A stretch of DNA of 64,000 nucleotides from Conexibacter woesei Iso977N (GTDB taxonomy: Bacteria; Actinomycetota; Thermoleophilia; Solirubrobacterales; Solirubrobacteraceae), in NCBI RefSeq assembly GCF_000424625.1, contig NZ_AUKG01000001.1, positions 1,426,001 to 1,490,000 on the forward strand, written 5' to 3'. Shown here piece after piece: positions 17,546 to 26,255 of the stretch. The notes under the pieces were generated by a model that ran no database searches, had not been told where the DNA came from, and saw nothing but the letters and a program-made list of their open reading frames with translations. A program made the translations under genes and the position numbers. Numbering within the stretch: the first letter of the stretch is position 1; every line of letters begins with the position of its first letter.

Positions 17546-18721
17546 ATGGTCCGTCTCGTCGTGGCCGCTTCCGTGCAGGACCTCGTGGACGATCTCGCCG
17601 ACGCGCTGCGGCGCCCGGTCGCGCTGGAGGACCGGCGCTGGCGGCTGCTGGCCTACAGCGCGCACACCGAGCTCGAGGACCGCGTGCGCCAGGCGTCGAT
17701 CCTGGCGCGGGCCGCGCCGCCGCGGGTCGCCGCGTGGCTGGACACGCTGGGGCTGGAGGCGGCCGGCGAGGTCGTCGACACGCCGCCCAACGCGGCGATC
17801 GAGATGGGCCCGCGGACCGCGGCGCCGGTCCGGCACGAGGGCGCGCTGCTGGGCGTGGTGTGGGTGATCCCGGGGCCGGTGGCGCTCGACGCGCGCGAGC
17901 GCTCGCTGCTGCGCGACACGGCGCGGGCGGCCGCCGACGTGCTGTGGGCCGAGCGCGCGGGCGGCGGCGAGGCGCACGCGCGGATCGCCGCGCTGCTGGG
18001 CGAGCTGCTCGACGACCCGGACCCGGGCGTGCGGACGCGGGCGGCGAGCGAGCTGGCGGCGCGGCAGGGGTGGTCGCGCAGCGGGGCGTTCGCGCTGGCG
18101 GTGATGGACGTGGCCGACGACGACGCGGCGTCGGAGATCCTGGAGCGCGCGCGGCGGCGCTGGCACGCCGACGACCTGGTGTGGCGCGTGCGCGGCGCGG
18201 CCGGGACGGTGGTCGCGCACCTCGGCGCGCGCGGCCCGGACGCGCTGGCGGGCGCGCTGGTGGACGCGGGCGCCGCGCACGCGGCGGCGTCGGCGGTCCT
18301 GCCGGACCTCGCGGCGGCGCGCGAGGGCGTCGGCGGGGCGGCCGCGGCGCTGGTCGCGCTGCAGCACGTCCCGGCGCTGGGGCGGTCCGGGAGCGTGGAC
18401 GGGCTCGGCGCGTGGCCGCGGGTCGCGGCGCTGTGGGACGCGGCCGGGCGGCCGGCGGCGCCCGCGCCGCTGCCCGCGCTGCTGGGTGCTCCGCGGGGGT
18501 CCGGCGTCGAGCTGGTCCGCGCGCTGGAGGCCGTACTGGATTGTGGTGGAGATGTTGCGGAGGCGGCGCGGGTCCTTCACGTCCATCGCGCGACCCTCTA
18601 TCGTCGCCTCGCGCGGGTGCAGGAGCTCACCGGCCTGGACCTGGCACGCGGCGACGATCGCCTGCATGCCCATCTGGCAGTGCGGATGTGGCGGCTCGCC
18701 GGGTCGCCCGACCTAGGATGA
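17546..18721 (+). CDS. PucR/CdaR-type transcriptional regulator
   Basis: A 391-residue protein. The start of the protein reads VQDLVDDLADALRRPVALED, followed by a GAF-like sensing part (RRWRLLAYSAHTEL, GALLGVVWVI). The C-terminal PucR-type helix-turn-helix reads GDVAEAARVLHVHRATLYRR followed by LARVQELTGLDL. Divergent position next to proline dehydrogenase suggests proline-responsive control; this is inference, though regulators of this type are known for proline operons in actinobacteria. A GTG at 17561, 10 bases after TATGGT, is a serious alternative start that would give a leaderless message. The stop overlaps the signal peptidase start in ATGA. Confidence 0.8.
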   Translation: MVRLVVAASVQDLVDDLADALRRPVALEDRRWRLLAYSAHTELEDRVRQASILARAAPPRVAAWLDTLGLEAAGEVVDTPPNAAIEMGPRTAAPVRHEGALLGVVWVIPGPVALDARERSLLRDTARAAADVLWAERAGGGEAHARIAALLGELLDDPDPGVRTRAASELAARQGWSRSGAFALAVMDVADDDAASEILERARRRWHADDLVWRVRGAAGTVVAHLGARGPDALAGALVDAGAAHAAASAVLPDLAAAREGVGGAAAALVALQHVPALGRSGSVDGLGAWPRVAALWDAAGRPAAPAPLPALLGAPRGSGVELVRALEAVLDCGGDVAEAARVLHVHRATLYRRLARVQELTGLDLARGDDRLHAHLAVRMWRLAGSPDLG

Positions 18722-19368
18722 TCCCCAACACACCCATGCTCCAGCGCGCCCGTCACAACACCGTCGTCGAGACCATCTTCCTGTTGGTCGTCGCCGTCGC
18801 GCTCGCCGTCCTGCTCCAGGCGTTCGCGGTCAAGCCCTACAAGATCCCGTCCGGCTCGATGGAGCCGACGCTGCACGTCGGCGACCGCGTGCTCGTCAAC
18901 CGGTTCGCCAAGCGGATCCTCGGCAACGAGCCGAAGGTCGGCGACATCACGGTCTTCCATCCGCCGGTCGGCGCCGACGACCAGGGCGGCGGCTCGCAGT
19001 GCGGCGACCCGAACGCGGGCGAGGGGAAGCAGACGCCGTGCGACAGGGCGACGCCGAGGCAGTCCAAGCAGTCGTTCATCAAGCGCGTGGTCGGGGTCGG
19101 CGGCGACACGATCGCGATCCAGGGCGGCAGGGTCATCCGCAACGGCAGGATGACCAGGGAGTCGTTCGCGGCGCCGTGCATCTCCGGCAGCGACATCTGC
19201 GACTTCCCGAAGACCATCAGGGTGCCCAAGGGCTACGTGTACATGATGGGCGACAACCGCGGGAACTCCGACGACTCGCGCTTCTGGGGCCCGATCCCGA
19301 CGTCGTGGGTGATCGGCAAGGCGTTCGCGACCTACTGGCCGCCGTCGCGCATCGGCGGCGCGGGCTAG
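18718..19368 (+). CDS. lepB: Signal peptidase I
   Basis: A 216-residue membrane-anchored serine protease that removes signal peptides from exported proteins. One N-terminal helix (IFLLVVAVALAVLLQAF) is followed by the catalytic domain: the nucleophile is Ser47 in PSGSMEPTL, the general base is Lys122 in FIKRVVGVGGD, and box E reads GDNRGNSDDSR. Between them is a Gly/Asp/Cys loop with two cysteines that could pair. ATG at 18718 overlaps the regulator's stop; an ATG at 18736 is possible. It is convergent with, and shares a CTAG stop overlap with, the secreted-protein cluster it may serve. Confidence 0.93.
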   Translation: MIPNTPMLQRARHNTVVETIFLLVVAVALAVLLQAFAVKPYKIPSGSMEPTLHVGDRVLVNRFAKRILGNEPKVGDITVFHPPVGADDQGGGSQCGDPNAGEGKQTPCDRATPRQSKQSFIKRVVGVGGDTIAIQGGRVIRNGRMTRESFAAPCISGSDICDFPKTIRVPKGYVYMMGDNRGNSDDSRFWGPIPTSWVIGKAFATYWPPSRIGGAG

Positions 19369-20450
19369 CGCCTGACCGAGCCCTTCGTGAGCAGCCTGCC
19401 GTAGCGGTGGGCGGCGCGGGGGCCGTAGCCGGGCCAGATGTAATAGCGGTAGGTGCCGACCTTCAAGGTGTAGGTCTTGCCGCGGTAGCGCCAGCTGCGG
19501 TGCAGGGTGTAGTGGTTCTTCGTGGGCCAGGAGGAGAGGACCTTGTGGCCGGCGCGGAAGAGCTGCACGTTGTAGTACTTGGCGCCGCGCCGGGCCCTCC
19601 AGCGCAGGGTGGGGAGCTTGGTGGTCCTGGCCTTGGGCTTCGGCCTCGGCGTGCTCTCGGCGGCGACCGCCGGCGGCGTGGTCGCTGAGGTGGTCGCGGT
19701 CGTCGCGTTGCCGGCGGCGTCGCGGAGGGTGACCGTGTAGGTGTAGGTCGTGCTCGGCGCGAGCGGGCCGTCCGTGAGGTTGCCGGCGGGCGTCGTGTTC
19801 GGGAGCGTCACGCCCCCGGGGTCGCGGGTGACGGCGGCGGTGCGGGCGTCGGGGGAGGTCGCCCAGGTGACCGACATGGTGGTGTTGGCGGCCGGCGTCG
19901 CGGTGAGGGCGGTCAGCGGCGGCGCGGTGGCGTCGTAGGCGAAGCCGAACGCCAGCGGCGCCGAGACGTTGCCGGCCCTGTCGGTGCAGGTGCCGGTGGG
20001 GGCGGCGGTCGTCGTGTCGGGGCCGTTGTAGGTGGTGTTGGTGCAGGACGCGATCCCGGAGGTCGTGTCGGTCCCCGACCACGTCAGCGCGACCGGCGCG
20101 GTGTAGAACGGCGGCGCGTCGGGCGGGCGCGCGGGTGCGGCGGTGAGGCCCGCCGGTGGGGTCTGGTCGATCCTGATGGACTTGGTCGTCGCGCTGGCGT
20201 TGCCGTCGGCGTTGTGCGCGGAGCAGCTGCGCTGGATGCCGGTCGTGTCGTCGCGCAGCGTCTCGATCGGGACGCAGGCGTCGAGGTCGGTCGCGCCGGT
20301 GATCGTCCACGTGAGCGTGACCGGGCCGGTGAACCAGCCGCCGGTCCCGGCCGGGCCGGAGAGCGTGTAGTCGAACGTCGGGACCGACGCCGCGGCGGGC
20401 GTGGCCGCCGTGGCGAGCAGCGCGGCGGCGAGGAGGAGCGACCTGCTCAT
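19365..20450 (-). CDS. Secreted protein with Ig-like/fibronectin III-like domains
   Basis: A 361-residue exported protein: signal peptide MSRSLLLAAALLATAATPAA ending in ASV, two immunoglobulin-like parts typical of bacterial surface proteins (GPVTLTWTITGATDLDACV and APVALTWSGTDTTSGIASC with YNGPDTTTAAPTGTCTDRAG), a fibronectin III-like part (LTATPAANTTMSVTWATSP to TYTYTVTLRDAAGNATTAT), a basic Pro/Lys/Arg linker, and a Tyr/Arg-rich C-terminal domain (AKYYNVQLFRAGHKVLSSWP and TYRYYIWPGYG). It starts in an ATGA overlap with the gene before it, so the two are coupled. A structural or adhesive cell-surface role is likely. Confidence 0.78.
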   Translation of the reverse strand: MSRSLLLAAALLATAATPAAASVPTFDYTLSGPAGTGGWFTGPVTLTWTITGATDLDACVPIETLRDDTTGIQRSCSAHNADGNASATTKSIRIDQTPPAGLTAAPARPPDAPPFYTAPVALTWSGTDTTSGIASCTNTTYNGPDTTTAAPTGTCTDRAGNVSAPLAFGFAYDATAPPLTALTATPAANTTMSVTWATSPDARTAAVTRDPGGVTLPNTTPAGNLTDGPLAPSTTYTYTVTLRDAAGNATTATTSATTPPAVAAESTPRPKPKARTTKLPTLRWRARRGAKYYNVQLFRAGHKVLSSWPTKNHYTLHRSWRYRGKTYTLKVGTYRYYIWPGYGPRAAHRYGRLLTKGSVRR

Positions 20451-20929
20451 GCTGCCCTCCGGGTGACGAGCGCGCCGGCCGCGGCGAGCGCGAGCAGCGC
20501 GGCGCCCGCGATCGCCTCCAGGAGCGCGGGGTCGTCCGCAGGTCGCGCGCTGAGCGTCGGCGCGGTCAGCGCCGCGACGCTCCGCCGCAGCGAGGCCATC
20601 GGCGTGGAGAGCGAGACCGCGACGCGGCGCGGCACGGAGCGATGCGCCGGCACGTGGTGAGGGGCCGCGCGACGGCGAGCGGCGGCGTGGTGGGTCGGCG
20701 CGGCGGTGGTCGTCGCGGCGGGCGCAGGCACGGCGGCGGCGGTGCTCCTCGTCGCGGCCGGCTTCGGCACGACGACCGCGGTGGGCTGGCGCGCCGTCGG
20801 CGTCCGCGCCGGTGCCGCGTCCGGGCGCAACGCCGGCGCGGGGTCCGGCGAAGGCGTCTGGGCGATGGCCGTCGAGGACAGCATGACGACCAGAATGCAG
20901 AGCAATGCAGAACACCCAGCGAACCGCAC
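20447..20929 (-). CDS. Secreted Pro/Ala-rich protein with C-terminal membrane helix
   Basis: A 160-residue protein starting at GTG 20929: MRFAGCSALLCILVVMLSST is a signal peptide cleaved near AIAQ. The mature part is Pro/Ala/Thr-rich, then His/Arg-rich (THHAAARRRAAPHHVPAHR), and ends in a hydrophobic helix (LLEAIAGAALLALAAAGALV) followed by TRRAA, so it is probably anchored by its tail. The frame is open to 21004, but a -10-like TACCGT (reverse strand, 20936-20941) ends exactly 6 bases before the GTG, the same arrangement as at the sigma factor gene. The layout repeats that of the protein at 22440-23417. Confidence 0.68.
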   Translation of the reverse strand: MRFAGCSALLCILVVMLSSTAIAQTPSPDPAPALRPDAAPARTPTARQPTAVVVPKPAATRSTAAAVPAPAATTTAAPTHHAAARRRAAPHHVPAHRSVPRRVAVSLSTPMASLRRSVAALTAPTLSARPADDPALLEAIAGAALLALAAAGALVTRRAA

Positions 20930-21062
20930 GGAGTGACGGTACGCCGCGTTCGCGATGCACGTCAACGCCGCGAACGGCCAGGTTCGGCGGCCAAAGCTCC
21001 GCAACTCGACGGCGTGGGTCGCCGGCTGCGGCGGCAGCCGGCGGCCCTGCGCCGAAGCATCG

Positions 21063-22379
21063 CTAGATCTTGAGCACGAACGGCCAGCCCGAGAAGGCCT
21101 GCGAGGCGTTCTGGGTCGTGGCGTTGGTGTTCCCGGCGCTCGACTCCGCGCCGTTGTTGTTGCTCTGCGAGACCGGGCCGCTGCTCGCGCCCGGGCTCAG
21201 GATCGGCAGCGCCAGCGCGAGGTTCGCCGCGCAGGCCTGCAGCGCCTCGGCGGCCGAGTTGGCCGACTGGGCGTTGTACGCGGCCTGCCCGAGCGCCTGC
21301 ACCGCACCGCCCCAGCCGCCGGCGGACTGCGCGGCGTTCTGGGTCGTGGCGTTCTCGTTGCCGGCGCTGGACTGCGCGCCGTTGTTGTTGCTCTGCGACA
21401 CGGGGCCGGTCGAGGCGCCGGGCGACAGGATCGCAACGGAGATCGCGTTGTTGGTGGGGTTGGTCTGGTCAGCCGCGGCAGCCGAGTTGGCCTGCTGCGC
21501 GCTGCTCGACTCCTGGCCGATGCCCTGCACGGTCGGCGTGCTCGGGTACCCGCCACCGCCACCGCAGGACCCGCACTCGGTGCGGGACTCCGGCGCGGCC
21601 TGGATGGCCTCAGGTGCGCCACCGGCGCCCTGCGACGCGTTCTGCGTCGTCGCGTTCTCGTTGCCGGCGCTGGACTCCGCGCCGTTGTTGTTGCTCTGCG
21701 ACACGGGGCCGGTGGAGGCGCCGGGCGACAGGATCGCAACGGAGATCGCGTTGTTGGTGGGGTTGCTCTGGTGCGCGCTCGCGGCCGAGTTGGCCTGCTG
21801 GGCGCTGGTCGCGTCCTGGCCCGCCGCCTGCACCGAACCGCCGCCGCCACCGCCGCCCGCGCCCTGGGACGCGTTCTGCGTGGTGGCGTTGCTGTTGCCG
21901 GCGCTCGACCCCGCGCCGTTGTTGTTGCTCTGCGAGACCGGGCCGCTCGAGGCGCCCGGGCTCAGGATCGCGACGTGGACCGCGTTGTTGGAGGCGTTGC
22001 TCTGGTCCGCCCTCGCGGCCGAGTTCGCCGCCTGCGCGTTGGCCGCCGCCTGCGCGGCCTGCTGGAGCGCGGCGCCCGCCACGCTCTGCGCGGCGTTCTG
22101 CGTCGTCGCGTTCTGGTTGCCGGCGCTGGACTGCGCGCCGTTGTTGTTGCTCTGAGAGACGGGCCCGCTCGACGCGCCCGGGCTCAGGATGGCCACGGAG
22201 ATCGCGTTGTTGGAGGGGTTGCTCTGGTTGGCGGTCGCCGCCGAGTTGGCGGACTGCGTGTTCGTGGCCTGCTGACCGGCGCCCTGCACGGGCACGCCGT
22301 CGGCCATCGCGGTGCCGGCCGCGCACGCGGGCAGCACGGCTGCCGCGCACGCCGACCACACCATCATGGTCTTGCGCAT
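21063..22379 (-). CDS. Secreted Asn/Gln/Ser-rich five-repeat protein
   Basis: A 438-residue exported protein with a signal peptide (MRKTMMVWSACAAAVLPACA ending in AMADG). The mature part is five imperfect repeats of about 75-100 residues. Each has a QxANSAA segment, a NNAISVAI strand, the fixed core ILSPGASSGPVSQSNNNGA and a SSAGNxNATTQNAxQ tail. Asn, Gln, Ser, Ala and Gly dominate; there are only a few Cys, in the third linker (ECGSCGGGGG). Regular NNN/TTQN spacing is reminiscent of amyloid-forming or beta-solenoid surface proteins (curlin-like), but I know no named family for it. A good ribosome site (GAAGGAAC) precedes the ATG. Likely a fibre, sheath or coat component. Confidence 0.8.
   Translation of the reverse strand: MRKTMMVWSACAAAVLPACAAGTAMADGVPVQGAGQQATNTQSANSAATANQSNPSNNAISVAILSPGASSGPVSQSNNNGAQSSAGNQNATTQNAAQSVAGAALQQAAQAAANAQAANSAARADQSNASNNAVHVAILSPGASSGPVSQSNNNGAGSSAGNSNATTQNASQGAGGGGGGGSVQAAGQDATSAQQANSAASAHQSNPTNNAISVAILSPGASTGPVSQSNNNGAESSAGNENATTQNASQGAGGAPEAIQAAPESRTECGSCGGGGGYPSTPTVQGIGQESSSAQQANSAAAADQTNPTNNAISVAILSPGASTGPVSQSNNNGAQSSAGNENATTQNAAQSAGGWGGAVQALGQAAYNAQSANSAAEALQACAANLALALPILSPGASSGPVSQSNNNGAESSAGNTNATTQNASQAFSGWPFVLKI
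21106..22225 (-). repeat. Five imperfect coding repeats
   Basis: On the plus strand the repeat cores begin at about 21106, 21334, 21637, 21871 and 22093, that is 228, 303, 234 and 222 bases apart. The second and third cores are nearly identical over about 125 bases (I count about five differences), much closer than the others, which indicates recent duplication or gene conversion within the gene. Confidence 0.8.
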
Positions 22380-22439
22380 CGTGTTCGTTCCTTCGTTCGT
22401 GGTTGTTGTACGTGTTGCTTCTGGCGCACGACGAAGGAG

Positions 22440-23417
22440 CTAGCCGGGGCGTTCGAGGCGCCCTCCTGCGCGAAGGGGGAGACGGCGCCGCAGCAGCGCG
22501 ACCCGCTCGGGCGGTCCCGCCGAACCGGTGAGCAGGAGCGCGGCGACGAGCGCCAGGGCAAGGGCGGTCCCGCCGCCGCCCGGACCGCCGAGGCCCGCGG
22601 CCGCTGAGGCGGCGGGCGGCACGTCGGCCGGGAGGGACGGGGTGGAAGGCTGGGCCACGCCGACGACCGCCCGGTCGCGCTTGGCCGGCGCGGCGGGCGT
22701 GGCGTGGTGGTGGCGCGGCGCGGGTGTCGCGGCGAGCGTCGCCGCAGGCGCGGCGGTCGGGGCGAGCGGCGCGGCCGCGGCGGTGACCGCGGCGACGACG
22801 ACCGGCTGCGCGGCGTTGCGTGCGTGCCGCGTGCGGTGCGTCGTCGCCCGGTGGTGGGCGGCCCCGCCGCGCGCGCTCGACGGCGGCGCGGCGGCTGGCT
22901 GAGGAGCCGGCGCCGGGGTCGACGCTGCGGCAACCGGCGCGCTCTGATCGGGCGCGGCGGCGGGGCCGTTCTGGGCGCCGGACGACGGCGCGGCCGCGCT
23001 GTCGGTCGCCGCCGGGGTGGGCGGGATCGGAGCCGCGACCTGGGGCCTGGCCGGCGGCGCCGGAGCGGCGACCTGCGGCGCGGCCGGCGGCGTCGGCACG
23101 GTCGGCTGCGGCGGCGTGGGCGGCGTCGGAGGCGCGACCTGCGGAGGGGTCGGCGGCGTCGGGGCGGCGCTCGCCGCGGCGACCTGGATGTTGTTGACGA
23201 CCGCTCCCGGCGAGTTGATGACGACGGTCACGTTGACGTTCGTCGCGGCCGCCGCGGGCGGCGTGCCGCCGGCGGTGACGTCGTGGACCTGGTCGGCCGG
23301 GATGACGACGGTCGGCGTCTGCGTGTCGTCGGCCCGCACCGCGGGAACCATCGCGGCAAGGAGCGCCAGCGCGATCAGCAGGGCGCGGCGGGCGAGCGTG
23401 ACGAGGTCCGTCTCCAT
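22440..23417 (-). CDS. Secreted proline-rich protein with C-terminal membrane helix
   Basis: A 325-residue protein with signal peptide METDLVTLARRALLIALALL and a cleavage site near AVRADD. A short folded part contains ATNVNVTVVINSPGAVVNNI, whose SPGA core resembles the ILSPGASSG core of the neighbouring repeat protein. Then come PPTPPTPP-type proline repeats, a long Ala/Pro stretch, a His/Arg-rich segment (AHHRATTHRTRHARNA) and near the end a hydrophobic helix (TALALALVAALLLTGS) followed by Arg-rich residues. This is the architecture of a wall-spanning, tail-anchored surface protein. It is divergent from the sigma factor gene. Confidence 0.7.
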   Translation of the reverse strand: METDLVTLARRALLIALALLAAMVPAVRADDTQTPTVVIPADQVHDVTAGGTPPAAAATNVNVTVVINSPGAVVNNIQVAAASAAPTPPTPPQVAPPTPPTPPQPTVPTPPAAPQVAAPAPPARPQVAAPIPPTPAATDSAAAPSSGAQNGPAAAPDQSAPVAAASTPAPAPQPAAAPPSSARGGAAHHRATTHRTRHARNAAQPVVVAAVTAAAAPLAPTAAPAATLAATPAPRHHHATPAAPAKRDRAVVGVAQPSTPSLPADVPPAASAAAGLGGPGGGGTALALALVAALLLTGSAGPPERVALLRRRLPLRAGGRLERPG

Positions 23418-23561
23418 CGCGAGCGACCTGCCACCGGATGTCCGATCCGATCCATGCGCATGGCGATGCGCGGCGGTATCGCACATGCATGCGCGAAACA
23501 CCGCATTGCGGCCTGACCGAACGTCGTGCCGGGCCCTGTGAGCCGCCGGTACCGTCGTCGC
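23418..23561. promoter_or_regulatory. Divergent promoter region, sigma factor and surface protein
   Basis: 144 bases separate two divergent starts. For the sigma gene a -10-like TACCGT (23550-23555) ends 6 bases before the ATG. In the middle lies the perfect palindrome CCATGCGCATGG (23452-23463), followed by related ATGCAT/GCATGC elements near 23485, which could bind a regulator acting on both genes. Confidence 0.5.
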
Positions 23562-24524
23562 ATGAAGGGGCCCGACACCGACGCCCGGACCGGCGCCATC
23601 GAGGCGCACCTCCCGCTCGTCCGGTCGATCGCCCGCCGCTACGCGGGCCGCGGCGAGCCCCTCGACGACCTCGTCCAGGCGGGCACCGTCGGCCTCATCA
23701 AGGCGGTCGACACGTGGGACCCCGACCGCGGCCGCGACCTCGCCGCGCTGGCCCGCCCGGCGATCGAGGGCGAGATCCGCCACCACCTCCGCGACGGCGG
23801 TTCCGGACCCCACGTCGCGCGCGGCGACCGCGAGCTCGGCGCCCGCCTGCGCGCCCTGCGGACCGACCTCACCGCCCGCCTGCACCGCGCGCCGACGACC
23901 GCCGAGCTGGCCGACGCGGCCGGCGTCGACCCCGCGCACGCCGAGCGCGCGCTGGACGCCGGCGCGGGTGCCGTCGCGCTCAGCGACGACGAGGCCGCGC
24001 GCCTGCCCAGCGGCGCGCCCGGGACCGAGGCCGCCGAGGCGCGCGTCCTGCTCGAAGCCGGCTGGGACGTCCTCGACGAGCGCGAGCGCCGCCTGCTCGA
24101 GCTGCGCTACCGCGACGACCGCAGCCAGTCGGAGATCGCGCGCGAGCTCGGCCTCTCCCAGGCGCACGTGTCGCGGCTGCTGAAGGCCGCGCTGGAGCGG
24201 CTGCGCGCGGCGGTCGCGCCGGAGGAGAGCAGCGGCGCCGCCGACGCGCCGGTCACGCCCCGCGCCACGACCGCCGCCGACGAGCGTTCCGGCCGCCTGC
24301 TCCTGCGCCTGCCCAGGACGCTCCACACCGACCTGGCCGACGCGGCCGAGCGCGAGGGCGTCCCGCTCAACACCTACATCTCGGCCGCGCTCGCCGCGCA
24401 CGTCGCCGACCCGCGGGAGGCCGCGGCCGCCGCGCGCCGCCACCGCCTGCTCGTGCTCAACGCGCTGGTCATCGGCGCCGCGGCGGTCGTCGGGCTCGTG
24501 CTCCTCCTGACGGCGCTGCTGTAG
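23562..24524 (+). CDS. Sigma-70 family factor fused to RHH-like domain and membrane helix
   Basis: A 320-residue protein of unusual build. Residues 10-80 are a sigma region 2 of the SigB/SigF/WhiG group (PLDDLVQAGTVGLIKAVDTW, then LARPAIEGEIRHHLRD). Residues 90-145 resemble region 3. Residues 168-216 are region 4 with the helix-turn-helix SQSEIARELGLSQAHVSRLL. Residues 243-283 (RSGRLLLRLPRTLHTDLADA, REGVPLNTYISAALAAHV) look like the HicB/Arc ribbon-helix-helix fold. Residues 296-318 are a hydrophobic helix at the extreme C-terminus, so the factor is probably tail-anchored to the membrane. Start 23562 is set by the TACCGT box. No anti-sigma gene is adjacent. It would direct polymerase to a small regulon, perhaps the divergent surface genes. 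Confidence 0.82.
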   Translation: MKGPDTDARTGAIEAHLPLVRSIARRYAGRGEPLDDLVQAGTVGLIKAVDTWDPDRGRDLAALARPAIEGEIRHHLRDGGSGPHVARGDRELGARLRALRTDLTARLHRAPTTAELADAAGVDPAHAERALDAGAGAVALSDDEAARLPSGAPGTEAAEARVLLEAGWDVLDERERRLLELRYRDDRSQSEIARELGLSQAHVSRLLKAALERLRAAVAPEESSGAADAPVTPRATTAADERSGRLLLRLPRTLHTDLADAAEREGVPLNTYISAALAAHVADPREAAAAARRHRLLVLNALVIGAAAVVGLVLLLTALL

Positions 24525-24782
24525 ATCGCGCGCGCCGCGGCCGATGCCCCAAGGAGGGCGGCTACCCGCACCCCGGACCGCCTCAGGCGGATCCCGATGT
24601 GCGCTCCCGGCGCGCCCCCGAGCCACGGCACGACCACCGTCGATGCCGGCGCGGGCGACGACCACGTCTGGGCCTACTACGGCCACGGCACGATCGACTG
24701 CGGCCCCAGCATCGACACCGCGCGCGTCCGGATGAACCACGCGTTCACGCTGAAGCGCTGCGAGAAGGTGCTGCACTTCTAG
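24525..24782 (+). pseudogene. Remnant of an RTX-like secreted protein C-terminus
   Basis: The frame is open from the sigma factor stop to a TAG at 24780-24782 but has a sensible protein only from about 24630: TTTVDAGAGDDHVWAYYGHG followed by TIDCGPSIDTARVRMN and LKRCEKVLHF. The GAGDD / IDCGPxxD / CE pattern is that of the last calcium-binding RTX-type repeats of secreted proteins common in this bacterial group. No signal peptide or upstream repeats remain, so I read it as a decayed or truncated copy. A 61-residue peptide from ATG 24597 is the alternative. Confidence 0.45.
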
Positions 24783-24812: not shown

Positions 24813-26255
24813 ATGGGTCGGGTTGATGCCGCCATGGGCGACGCGCTGGAAGCCGTCGTCCGCCACCACCACCGCAGACGACTCCGGAGGCTCGGCCATC
24901 CGGAGGCGCTGGAGCCTGCGCCGCGCGCGGACCTCTGGGCGTCCGGCGATCCGCCGCCGCGGCCCGGCACGAAGTTGGAGGTGTTGGTCGACGGCGCCAC
25001 CGCGCTGCCCCGGATCGCGGAGGCGCTGCGCGCCGCGCGCTCGCACGTCCACCTCACCGGCTGGCACCTCGCGCCGCACTTCGAGCTGATCCGCGGCGAG
25101 CAGCCGACCGCGATCGGCCCGCTGCTCGCCGAGCTGGCCGAGCGCATCGACGTCCGCGTCCTGGTCTGGGCCGGCTCGCCGGTCCCGCTCTTCCACCCGA
25201 CGCGCAAGGAGGTCGGCGCCGCGGTTCACCAGCTGACCAAGGACACCAACATCCAGGCGCACCAGGACCCGCGCGAGCACCCGGTCCACTGCCACCACGA
25301 GAAGACCATCATCATCGACGACGAGGTCGCGTTCGTCGGTGGCATCGACCTCACCGACGACGCGGGCGACCGCTACGACACCTCCGAGCACCACGCGCGC
25401 CGCAAGCTCGGCTGGCACGACGTCGCGACGCGCATGGAGGGCCCGGCGGTCCAGGACGTCGCGCGCCACTTCACGATGCGCTGGCGCGAGGTGGCCGGCG
25501 AGGAGCTCCAGCCGCCGCTGCCGCGCCCGCCGGCCGGGACGAGCACGGTGCAGGTCGTCCGGACCGTCGCCGAGGACATGTACGACGCGGTCCCGCACGG
25601 CGACTTCCGGATCCTCGAGTCCTACCTGCGCGCGCTGCGCTCGGCCGAGTCCTACATCTACCTGGAGAACCAGTTCCTCTGGTCGCCCGAGGTCGTCGAC
25701 GTCCTGCGGGCCAAGCTGGAGGACCCGCCGAGCGACGACTTCCGGATCGTCGTCCTGCTGCCGTCGAAGGCCAACAACGGCCAGGACGACACCCGCGGCC
25801 AGCTCGGTGTGCTGGCCGACGCCGACGGGCACAGGAACCCGCACTTCCTCGCGACCACGCTGCGCTCGCGCACCGGCACGCGCGCCGACCAGCTCTACGT
25901 CCACGCCAAGGTCGGGATCGTCGACGACCGCTGGCTGACCGTCGGCTCGGCCAACCTCAACGCGCACTCGCTGTTCAACGACACCGAGATGAACGTCGTG
26001 ACCGACGACGCCGCGCTGGCCCAGGCGACGCGGGAGCGCCTCTGGGCCGAGCACCTCGAGCAACCGCTACAAGAACTGCAGGGCCGCGCGCCGCACGAGC
26101 TGGTCGACGAGCTCTGGCGCCCGATCGCGATGGAGCAGCTGCAGCGCAGGGAAGACGGCGAGCCGCCGACACACCGCCTGGTCGCCCTCCCGGGCGTCTC
26201 CAAGCGGTCGCGCCGGCTGCTCGGCCCGCTGCAGGGTGTGATCGACGACGGCTAG
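24813..26255 (+). CDS. Phospholipase D family protein (two HKD motifs)
   Basis: A 480-residue enzyme of the PLD superfamily. Both catalytic motifs are intact: HCHHEKTIIIDDEVAFVGG (first HxKxxxxD) and YVHAKVGIVDDRWLTVGSAN (second). It has no signal peptide or membrane helix, so it resembles the soluble PLD / cardiolipin synthase-like group that hydrolyses or transfers phosphatidyl groups. An ATG at 24834 is an alternative start. The stop is followed after 2 bases by the stop of the convergent gene, in the palindrome CTAGGCCTAG. Confidence 0.88.
   Translation: MGRVDAAMGDALEAVVRHHHRRRLRRLGHPEALEPAPRADLWASGDPPPRPGTKLEVLVDGATALPRIAEALRAARSHVHLTGWHLAPHFELIRGEQPTAIGPLLAELAERIDVRVLVWAGSPVPLFHPTRKEVGAAVHQLTKDTNIQAHQDPREHPVHCHHEKTIIIDDEVAFVGGIDLTDDAGDRYDTSEHHARRKLGWHDVATRMEGPAVQDVARHFTMRWREVAGEELQPPLPRPPAGTSTVQVVRTVAEDMYDAVPHGDFRILESYLRALRSAESYIYLENQFLWSPEVVDVLRAKLEDPPSDDFRIVVLLPSKANNGQDDTRGQLGVLADADGHRNPHFLATTLRSRTGTRADQLYVHAKVGIVDDRWLTVGSANLNAHSLFNDTEMNVVTDDAALAQATRERLWAEHLEQPLQELQGRAPHELVDELWRPIAMEQLQRREDGEPPTHRLVALPGVSKRSRRLLGPLQGVIDDG

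Follow-up and report, generated by a model that had tools for sequence, protein, structure and literature searches.

Can a sigma factor serve one set of exported proteins from the membrane, next to the genes that encode them? Sigma factors are normally soluble and restrained by separate anti-sigma factors. The question is raised by a locus in Conexibacter woesei Iso977N, found in the 64,000-nucleotide stretch that we analysed and call the window (contig NZ_AUKG01000001.1, positions 1,426,001 to 1,490,000). There, one gene encodes a sigma factor that continues into a ribbon-helix-helix (RHH) domain of HicB type and ends in a tail anchor, and four genes for exported proteins, which we name D, C, B and A, stand divergent from it. 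We consider it probable that this locus acts as a transcription switch, held at the membrane and dedicated to a surface-export operon of two pairs, in which each pair joins a proline-rich protein with a C-terminal hydrophobic helix (D and B) to a secreted partner (C and A). The parts are the following, with positions counted in the window:

23562..24524, plus strand: sigma-HicB-anchor gene, 320 amino acids; sigma factor of SigB/F/G type, HicB-type RHH and C-terminal tail anchor (Pfam).
24282..24392, plus strand: HicB RHH part, residues 241-277 (PF05534 match, alignment A2).
24450..24521, plus strand: tail anchor LVLNALVIGAAAVVGLVLLLTALL, residues 297-320, with a conserved Asn (hydropathy).
23418..23561, no strand: divergent control region between D and the sigma gene, 144 bp, strongly conserved with the nearest relative, genome G005 (pairwise alignment).
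22440..23417, minus strand: D, with signal peptide, VNVTVVINSPGAVV motif, Pro-rich body, hydrophobic helix and a basic 25-residue tail ending in RLERPG.
21063..22379, minus strand: C, secreted, with five Gln/Asn-ladder repeats.
20447..20929, minus strand: B, with signal peptide, SPDP motif, Pro/His/Arg-rich body and C-terminal hydrophobic helix; start codon uncertain.
19365..20450, minus strand: A, secreted, tandem Ig/FnIII-like, overlapping B by 4 nt.

A preliminary description of this DNA, made from the letters without database searches, had already reported four consecutive minus-strand genes for exported proteins, which are D, C, B and A at 19365-23417. Its translational coupling of two of them agrees with the 4-nt overlap of B and A, and the same overlap recurs in G336, L171 and L180 (G-numbers denote genomes and L-numbers loci). 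The shared architecture that it noted belongs to B and D, both with a signal-peptide-like start, a Pro/Ala-rich body and a C-terminal hydrophobic stretch, and the SPGA motif common to two proteins has five copies in C and one in D. The divergent sigma gene with an extra DNA-binding-like domain and a tail anchor also holds up, as the domain matches HicB PF05534 above the cut-off and the protein ends in a hydrophobic 19-mer.

The sigma regions of the window protein match Pfam above the cut-offs (Sigma70_r2 2.5e-18, r4 1.8e-14, r3 2.3e-7), and the HicB domain does so at 3.5e-8 (33.7 bits against a cut-off of 21). The NCBIfam model SigBFG gives 9.3e-52 and 176 bits, below its curated cut-off of 234.35. 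The RNase H-like N-terminal HicB part has no Pfam match in the window protein; among relatives, the second HicB part passes only UPF0150 in G038, HicB_lk_antitox in G314 and neither in G353.

The hydrophobic stretch at the end of the window protein has a mean hydropathy of 2.82 over 19 residues with none following. All 24 listed anchored sequences contain such a 19-mer within their last 60 residues (mean hydropathy 2.44 to 3.49), with Asn in or next to its first part and 0 to 9 residues behind it. The anchored sequence of G288, outside the 24, has the same kind of tail, and G191, also not among them, has a profile match that covers the anchor. For 24 other SigF-type sigma factors of the class the maximum is 0.42, so that none reaches 1.6. 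The anchor is thus predicted from hydropathy to insert in the membrane. An external sensor domain of the ToxR/CadC type is absent, since at most 9 residues follow the 19-mer in the 24 sequences. In a tree of 44 sigma domains, a 100/100 branch separates 20 cluster sigmas from 24 others, and the fused sigmas form no single group. The comparison set of 24 is narrow, all of it from one family, and long branches lead to several cluster sigmas, so the tree shows divergence more than origin.

To follow the neighbourhood through relatives we used a profile of the HicB-anchor part (A2) on 399 genomes of the class. It matched in 58, and in 20 of these the match spans the anchor uninterrupted by a stop. 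This count omits all matches stopping before the anchor, as well as G389 (two internal stops), G374 (three internal stops), and G334 and G383 (weak matches in very long frames). The HicB matches of G374, G395 and G416 were rejected as anchored relatives and are ordinary hicAB pairs without an anchor. Five further anchored genomes belong to the window's family (G038, G003, G064, G063 and G009), giving a total of 26 HicB-anchor loci in 25 genomes of the class. The loci fall in three families: f1, the window's own; f3, a second family of its order; and f7, labelled 'same class' and hence of another order.

The HicB-anchor is fused to sigma in nine loci, all of f1 (the window, G005, G038, G003, G064, G063, G070, G071 and G009; the G009 contig starts inside sigma, and the G071 gene is split over two contigs and taken as one). 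It is a separate gene in 14 loci, all of f7, with a sigma gene directly in front in 13; at the remaining one (G262) the contig ends before any sigma. Fusion in nine loci and adjacency of separate genes in 13 make a Rosetta-stone argument that sigma and HicB-anchor belong together. Genes of A, B, C or D type adjoin 24 of the 26 loci, where the B-like genes of G322 and G346 were recognised by architecture only; at the other two, G009 and G262, the contig ends. The full order, sigma/HicB-anchor followed divergently by D-C-B-A, is present in seven loci of two orders: the window, G005, G353, G317, G336, G191 and G180 (in G180 a further ORF separates sigma from D, and the position of A comes from the A-domain profile). 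The preliminary description had named the lack of a conserved neighbourhood in related genomes as evidence against its proposal; the neighbourhood instead recurs in another order of the class.

A sample of 396 genomes of the phylum contained 13 with a match, and the 11 from other classes all end at or before position 148 of the 177 of the profile. In G152, a member of the same class in that sample, the match ends at 163 with an internal stop. A scan of named genomes with the sigma protein gave zero matches.

The SigB consensus of S. coelicolor is GNNTN-N14-16-GGGTAY (PMC5402319). Of 16 upstream regions, drawn from 14 loci, 5 contain the pattern GNNT-N14-16-GGGTA in the direction of the surface genes, against a shuffle mean of 0.25, with none of 300 shuffles as high; the reverse strand of the same regions has no match. 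A refined pattern, GG[GAT]T-N16-GGGTA[CTG]T, has nine matches on both strands of the 14 f7 loci (200,313 bp), each near the start of a sigma gene and directed away from that gene (L118, L119, L123, L124, L125, L127, L128, L129 and L131). The open frame downstream, where recognisable, is a D, D-like or B-like gene; in L123, L127 and L131 the gene identified as D from its end is more distant. The looser G[GT]NT-N16-GGGTA has 10 matches in the 14 f7 loci, one of them (L117) away from any sigma, and 3 in 11 f1/f3 loci, one near the sigma start of G038. The earlier proposal that the surface genes have their own transcription factor is supported for the other order, where SigB-type promoters point from sigma to the surface genes, and lacks this support in the window, where none is recognisable.

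A second DNA signal is the palindrome GTGATATCAC. We compared the 21 loci with a visible sigma start, leaving out G009, G262, G294 (two) and G428. With at most one mismatch, 18 sites lie less than 1 kb from the sigma start, in 16 of these loci, and 3 lie farther away. In f7 it occurs 12 times in 13 loci, every time within that distance (11 of 13 loci); in f1 it occurs 9 times in 8 loci, six times within that distance (5 of 8 loci). The same search of 26 other loci (373,489 bp) gave none. When all 1,024 palindromic 10-mers were ranked, GTGATATCAC was the only one among the dozen most enriched to be present in more than 4 loci, and the two that exceed it in enrichment have 3 sites each. Exact copies in 24 whole genomes number 8, in 7 genomes, and 6 of the 8 are inside sigma/HicB-anchor loci. 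One mismatch over 12 bases was rejected as a measure of genome-wide specificity, for it gives 3 to 24 places per genome, including 3 in G126, which has no known HicB-anchor; our evidence is confined to exact copies and the comparison of loci. The two exact copies outside the clusters, at L202 4625 upstream of a lipoprotein-like gene and at L201 4005 within the start of a predicted open reading frame (ORF), may be further targets or chance.

In f7 the palindrome is mostly inside the divergent gene, and in f1 it is in the linker between sigma and HicB and close to the start of the sigma gene. Eight divergent-strand open frames read it as ..ATA.., which in five of the eight is the sole ATA among the Ile codons, and the linker sites, judged by eye, are not all translated in one frame. 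As the genes that hold it and their codon frames differ, it is probably the DNA and not the protein that is conserved. Each of five linker sites in f1 has a weaker copy, with two or three mismatches, 20 to 21 bp off, and in L126 a second copy is 22 bp away. Each half of it also holds the core of the heptad NATCACN, to which the RHH protein omega binds (PMC4803016), and GTGATATCAC is the best candidate for a HicB operator.

These results suggest the following mechanism. The sigma part would steer RNA polymerase to the promoter facing the surface genes, a step supported in f7. The RHH part may dimerise on GTGATATCAC, whose copies lie close to the promoter or inside the divergent or the sigma gene, and by this binding the locus would hold its own regulator. 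The anchor is predicted to keep the sigma/HicB complex at the membrane, so that D-C-B-A would be transcribed and exported there, and the regulator might there register the state of the envelope or of export, possibly via the basic D tail that mostly ends in Pro-Gly. A more specific version, which we put forward tentatively and consider doubtful in full, is that a tail-anchored sigma with its own operator-binding domain ties its locus to the membrane, with transcription, translation and export at one site and the Pro-Gly tail of D reporting assembly to the sigma.

Several observations weigh against the switch as we propose it. The window and G005 show no recognisable SigB-type promoter and no palindrome like that of the relatives, and the mechanism for the window is accordingly carried over from relatives. 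The palindrome is not near the sigma start in 5 of the 21 loci (the window, G005, G003, G353 and G221), exact copies are absent from 17 of the 24 whole genomes, and the three f3 loci (G294 twice, G428) contain no GATATC at all. These three also have no adjacent sigma; their HicB-anchor faces B and, in G294, also A. The refined promoter was fitted after the first sites had been seen, several loci are close relatives, and the pattern is absent from the f7 loci of G314, G353, G191 and G221 and from all 11 f1/f3 loci searched, the window included. The binding of HicB to GTGATATCAC is deduced from their co-location and the membrane insertion of the tail from hydropathy. A search with C alone found this protein in 5 of 146 genomes of the window's family, counting the window and a weak match in G028. 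The exported proteins also occur apart from the regulator: a sigma/HicB-anchor is near only 3 of 23 named A loci (L173, L175 and L181), most named loci have A alone or an overlapping B-A pair (L171, L180) without the HicB-anchor sigma, and C and D occur without it in G091.

The control region of the window itself is strongly conserved with that of G005 in the pairwise alignment and contains GCGATACC / GTGATACC. A reading as GGTG-N16-GYGATAC is possible and was chosen by eye. One further element was noted there:

23473..23482, minus strand: conserved GCGATACCGC, with 3 mismatches to the palindrome GTGATATCAC; uncertain, a candidate degenerate operator or -10.

In the f3 genome G294 the control regions of the two copies (L121; the G428 locus is L120) share an inverted repeat of the kind CGGTC..GACCG, seen by eye.

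How far the locus is a unit can be judged from A. A profile of its C-terminal domain (A3), run on 399 genomes of the class that we take as the same sample as for A2, matches in 59. A is present in 19 of the 20 anchored-HicB genomes (the exception is G071) versus 40 of the 379 others (Fisher p 1.8e-16, uncorrected for kinship), and much of this signal sits in one family. The named carriers of A are Solirubrobacterales, Thermoleophilaceae and Ca. Solirubrobacter pratensis. The three named A loci with a regulator nearby were taken as the contigs of G191, G003 and G314, and L189 as that of G322, beyond its sigma only. With three such cases in 23, A was rejected as a marker of the unit and is a wider family than the unit. 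The sigma factors near A in L176 and L183 were likewise not accepted as members and look like RpoD-type chance neighbours. As A, B-A and C-D are found apart from sigma, the unit is modular (B-A, D-C and regulator) and not strictly self-contained. Of the self-contained system first proposed, what stands is the association of sigma/HicB-anchor with D-C-B-A kept in two orders; what does not is exclusiveness, given that A and B-A also occur alone elsewhere.

Among the explanations other than a membrane-held switch, the strongest makes the HicB-anchor a membrane anti-sigma device that holds the sigma inactive until regulated proteolysis, or dissociation where the two are separate proteins, frees it. 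Adjacency or fusion of the two and a conserved tail anchor fit this as well, and anti-sigma factors bound to and cleaved in the membrane are known (PMC10202637, PMC4183432). The anchor protein, however, keeps a DNA-binding RHH and not a known anti-sigma domain, a locus-bound palindrome GTGATATCAC is present, and the HicB-anchor also stands beside B-A without a sigma, all of which make this explanation rather unlikely. A classic releasable anti-sigma is less likely than tethered transcription, since sigma and anchor stay joined in the natural fusion.

It is also conceivable that the HicB-anchor is a plain repressor of toxin-antitoxin origin next to a general stress sigma, with an anchor of no regulatory role. 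HicB is a typical antitoxin family, and SigB-type promoters in Streptomyces belong to stress and differentiation regulons (PMC8346170, PMC5402319). We regard this as improbable in view of the hydrophobic tail in 24 of 24 listed sequences and of a refined promoter found nowhere else within the 200 kb of f7 loci. In addition, reading between the window's sigma gene and the following gene for a PLD-family protein showed no HicA-like gene (relatives were not searched systematically for one), unlike the ordinary hicAB loci L132-L134. A chance neighbourhood of four exported genes and a sigma is hardly credible, for although the parts are found separately elsewhere and the cluster is patchy within the family, it is contradicted by the order sigma/HicB-anchor and D-C-B-A in seven loci of two orders and by the DNA signals.

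What the membrane-held switch would control is a set of proteins for which scans of C, B and D found no curated family above cut-off in Pfam or NCBIfam. A, which the preliminary description called Ig/FnIII-like, deserves the name: its AlphaFold2 model is all-beta and a chain of sandwich folds (predicted local distance difference test, pLDDT, 84.7), its Foldseek matches are tandem Ig/FnIII proteins including fibronectin fragments and a bacterial grappling-hook protein, and its Ig/FnIII matches in Pfam are sub-threshold only. C is the Asn/Gln-rich repeat protein of that description, with a signal peptide and five Gln/Asn-ladder repeats of ~75 residues built on 'ILSPGASxGPVSQSNNNGAxSSAGN'. Its model, from two sequences only, is all-beta, the strands following a similar pattern from repeat to repeat, and has a mean pLDDT of 51. 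No Foldseek match of C is significant, the top two being FapC (E 0.26) and CsgA (E 0.38); its sequence profile has zero matches among PDB sequences, and the Pfam curlin repeat has none in four C proteins (the window's and relatives').

The 14 listed D proteins all end in Pro-Gly after a net-positive tail of 20 to 36 residues, an ending shared by 2 of 358 called ORFs in other loci (a set that includes those of G091). The hydrophobic stretch is weak in two of them, G191 (1.24) and G412 (1.42). Left out of the list were the contig-cut D of G064, the extra D-like genes next to sigma in G284 (L124 6357-7727) and G344 (L129 2085-3467), which end in RD and RE, and the D-like gene of a second locus in the window's genome, which ends in RGT. 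No curated sorting signal (LPXTG, CTERM; NCBIfam) was found in B and D of the window or in 3 B and 3 D relatives. The D tail is basic and probably cytoplasmic, and D and B are best read as membrane stalks with C and A as their outer partners. The products of D-C-B-A may form a layer, sheath or fibre, as the preliminary description supposed. Some D proteins (L126 7186-8748, L013 1777-3219) have Trp-alternating stretches with Cys, such as WTWSWYLELDC and WTWTWTFTFC, which suggests exposed beta strands.

The second locus in the window's genome (G000, 5.7 Mb) is at about 1368312-1374109 of G000:C1 (L016 5313-11110), about 71-77 kb from the cluster. By eye it encodes two repeat proteins, one of 1035 residues rich in Gln, Ser and Asn repeats and one PKD-like, besides the D-like protein, which has 'LLWQVQQGC' motifs; no HicB-anchor profile match is reported there.

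The cluster of the window is flanked by two further genes, which we list as neighbours and not as parts of the unit:

18718..19368, plus strand: signal peptidase I (sipI; PF10502 2.3e-44).
24813..26255, plus strand: PLD-family protein gene (PF13091 7.3e-19).

sipI and A overlap by 4 nt at their ends. Beside the cluster, a gene for signal peptidase I was seen in the window and in G005, there inferred from an antisense ORF; the other loci were not searched for one. The PLD-like gene also adjoins the sigma gene in G005 and G009. Neither was adopted as a unit member, having been seen only at the window and its nearest relatives and being unsearched elsewhere, so that of the earlier claim for signal peptidase I the convergent position remains and a part in the unit lacks support. 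Behind the sigma gene, at 24597-24782 on the plus strand, a 61-codon frame reads by eye '..VDAGAGDDHVWAYYGHGTIDCGPSID..', which looks like a remnant of a calcium-binding repeat protein. Between its PLD and sigma-HicB genes, G005 (L012 5517-6613) has two additions: a gene that by eye encodes an ECF-type sigma, and one for a small protein with a signal peptide and transmembrane segment.

At this locus a sigma factor, an antitoxin-derived DNA-binding domain and a membrane anchor make one regulator beside one surface operon, and in relatives the same parts are unfused. It offers a compact system for asking whether transcription can run from the membrane at the point of export, and an entry point to a set of exported proteins, so far undescribed, from a large actinobacterial group known mostly from uncultured genomes. 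If the proposal is true, a sigma tethering its own locus would be an undescribed regulatory architecture, in which gene expression is coupled to the membrane naturally and by a genetically encoded device. Among the open-licence papers listed in our searches we found no description of such a unit, whether under HicB/sigma fusions, fused or membrane-anchored sigma factors or the surface and matrix proteins of this group. Word searches found neither 'transmembrane' nor 'sigma' in the main text of a HicAB survey (PMC10865869) and no 'sigma factor' in PMC2701414.

The regulator amounts to a group 3 sigma plus HicB. Like SigB/SigF/SigG-type (group 3) sigmas it has regions 2, 3 and 4 and, in some relatives, a GGGTA-type -10 facing the divergent genes; unlike them it carries a HicB RHH and a tail anchor, and the window's protein falls short of the SigBFG cut-off. 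With HicAB toxin-antitoxin systems it shares PF05534 and, in G314 and G038, the second HicB part, and it differs from them in its tail anchor, in having a sigma as partner and in the lack of a visible HicA beside the window's gene. C resembles the curli and Fap amyloids in the Gln/Asn-ladder repeats of a secreted, probably beta-rich protein whose best, non-significant Foldseek matches are FapC and CsgA; unlike them it has neither a Pfam curlin repeat nor a PDB sequence match, its repeats are long and its model is of low confidence. One-component regulators of the ToxR/CadC type consist of a cytoplasmic DNA-binding domain, a membrane helix and an external sensor domain, and sigma-HicB-anchor differs from them in having no external domain. 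Two other comparisons concern the omega repressor, a soluble plasmid protein, and the ECF41 sigma factors, whose fused domain is not known to be an RHH or an anchor. Omega has the RHH fold and binds the heptad NATCACN (PMC4803016), the core of which, ATCAC, is the half-site of GTGAT.ATCAC; its heptads form arrays, in contrast to the single palindromes, or palindrome and weaker copy 20-22 bp away, of our loci. ECF41 sigma factors with fused regulatory domains (PMC3426412) belong to a different sigma class and resemble the protein described here in that the sigma bears its own control domain.

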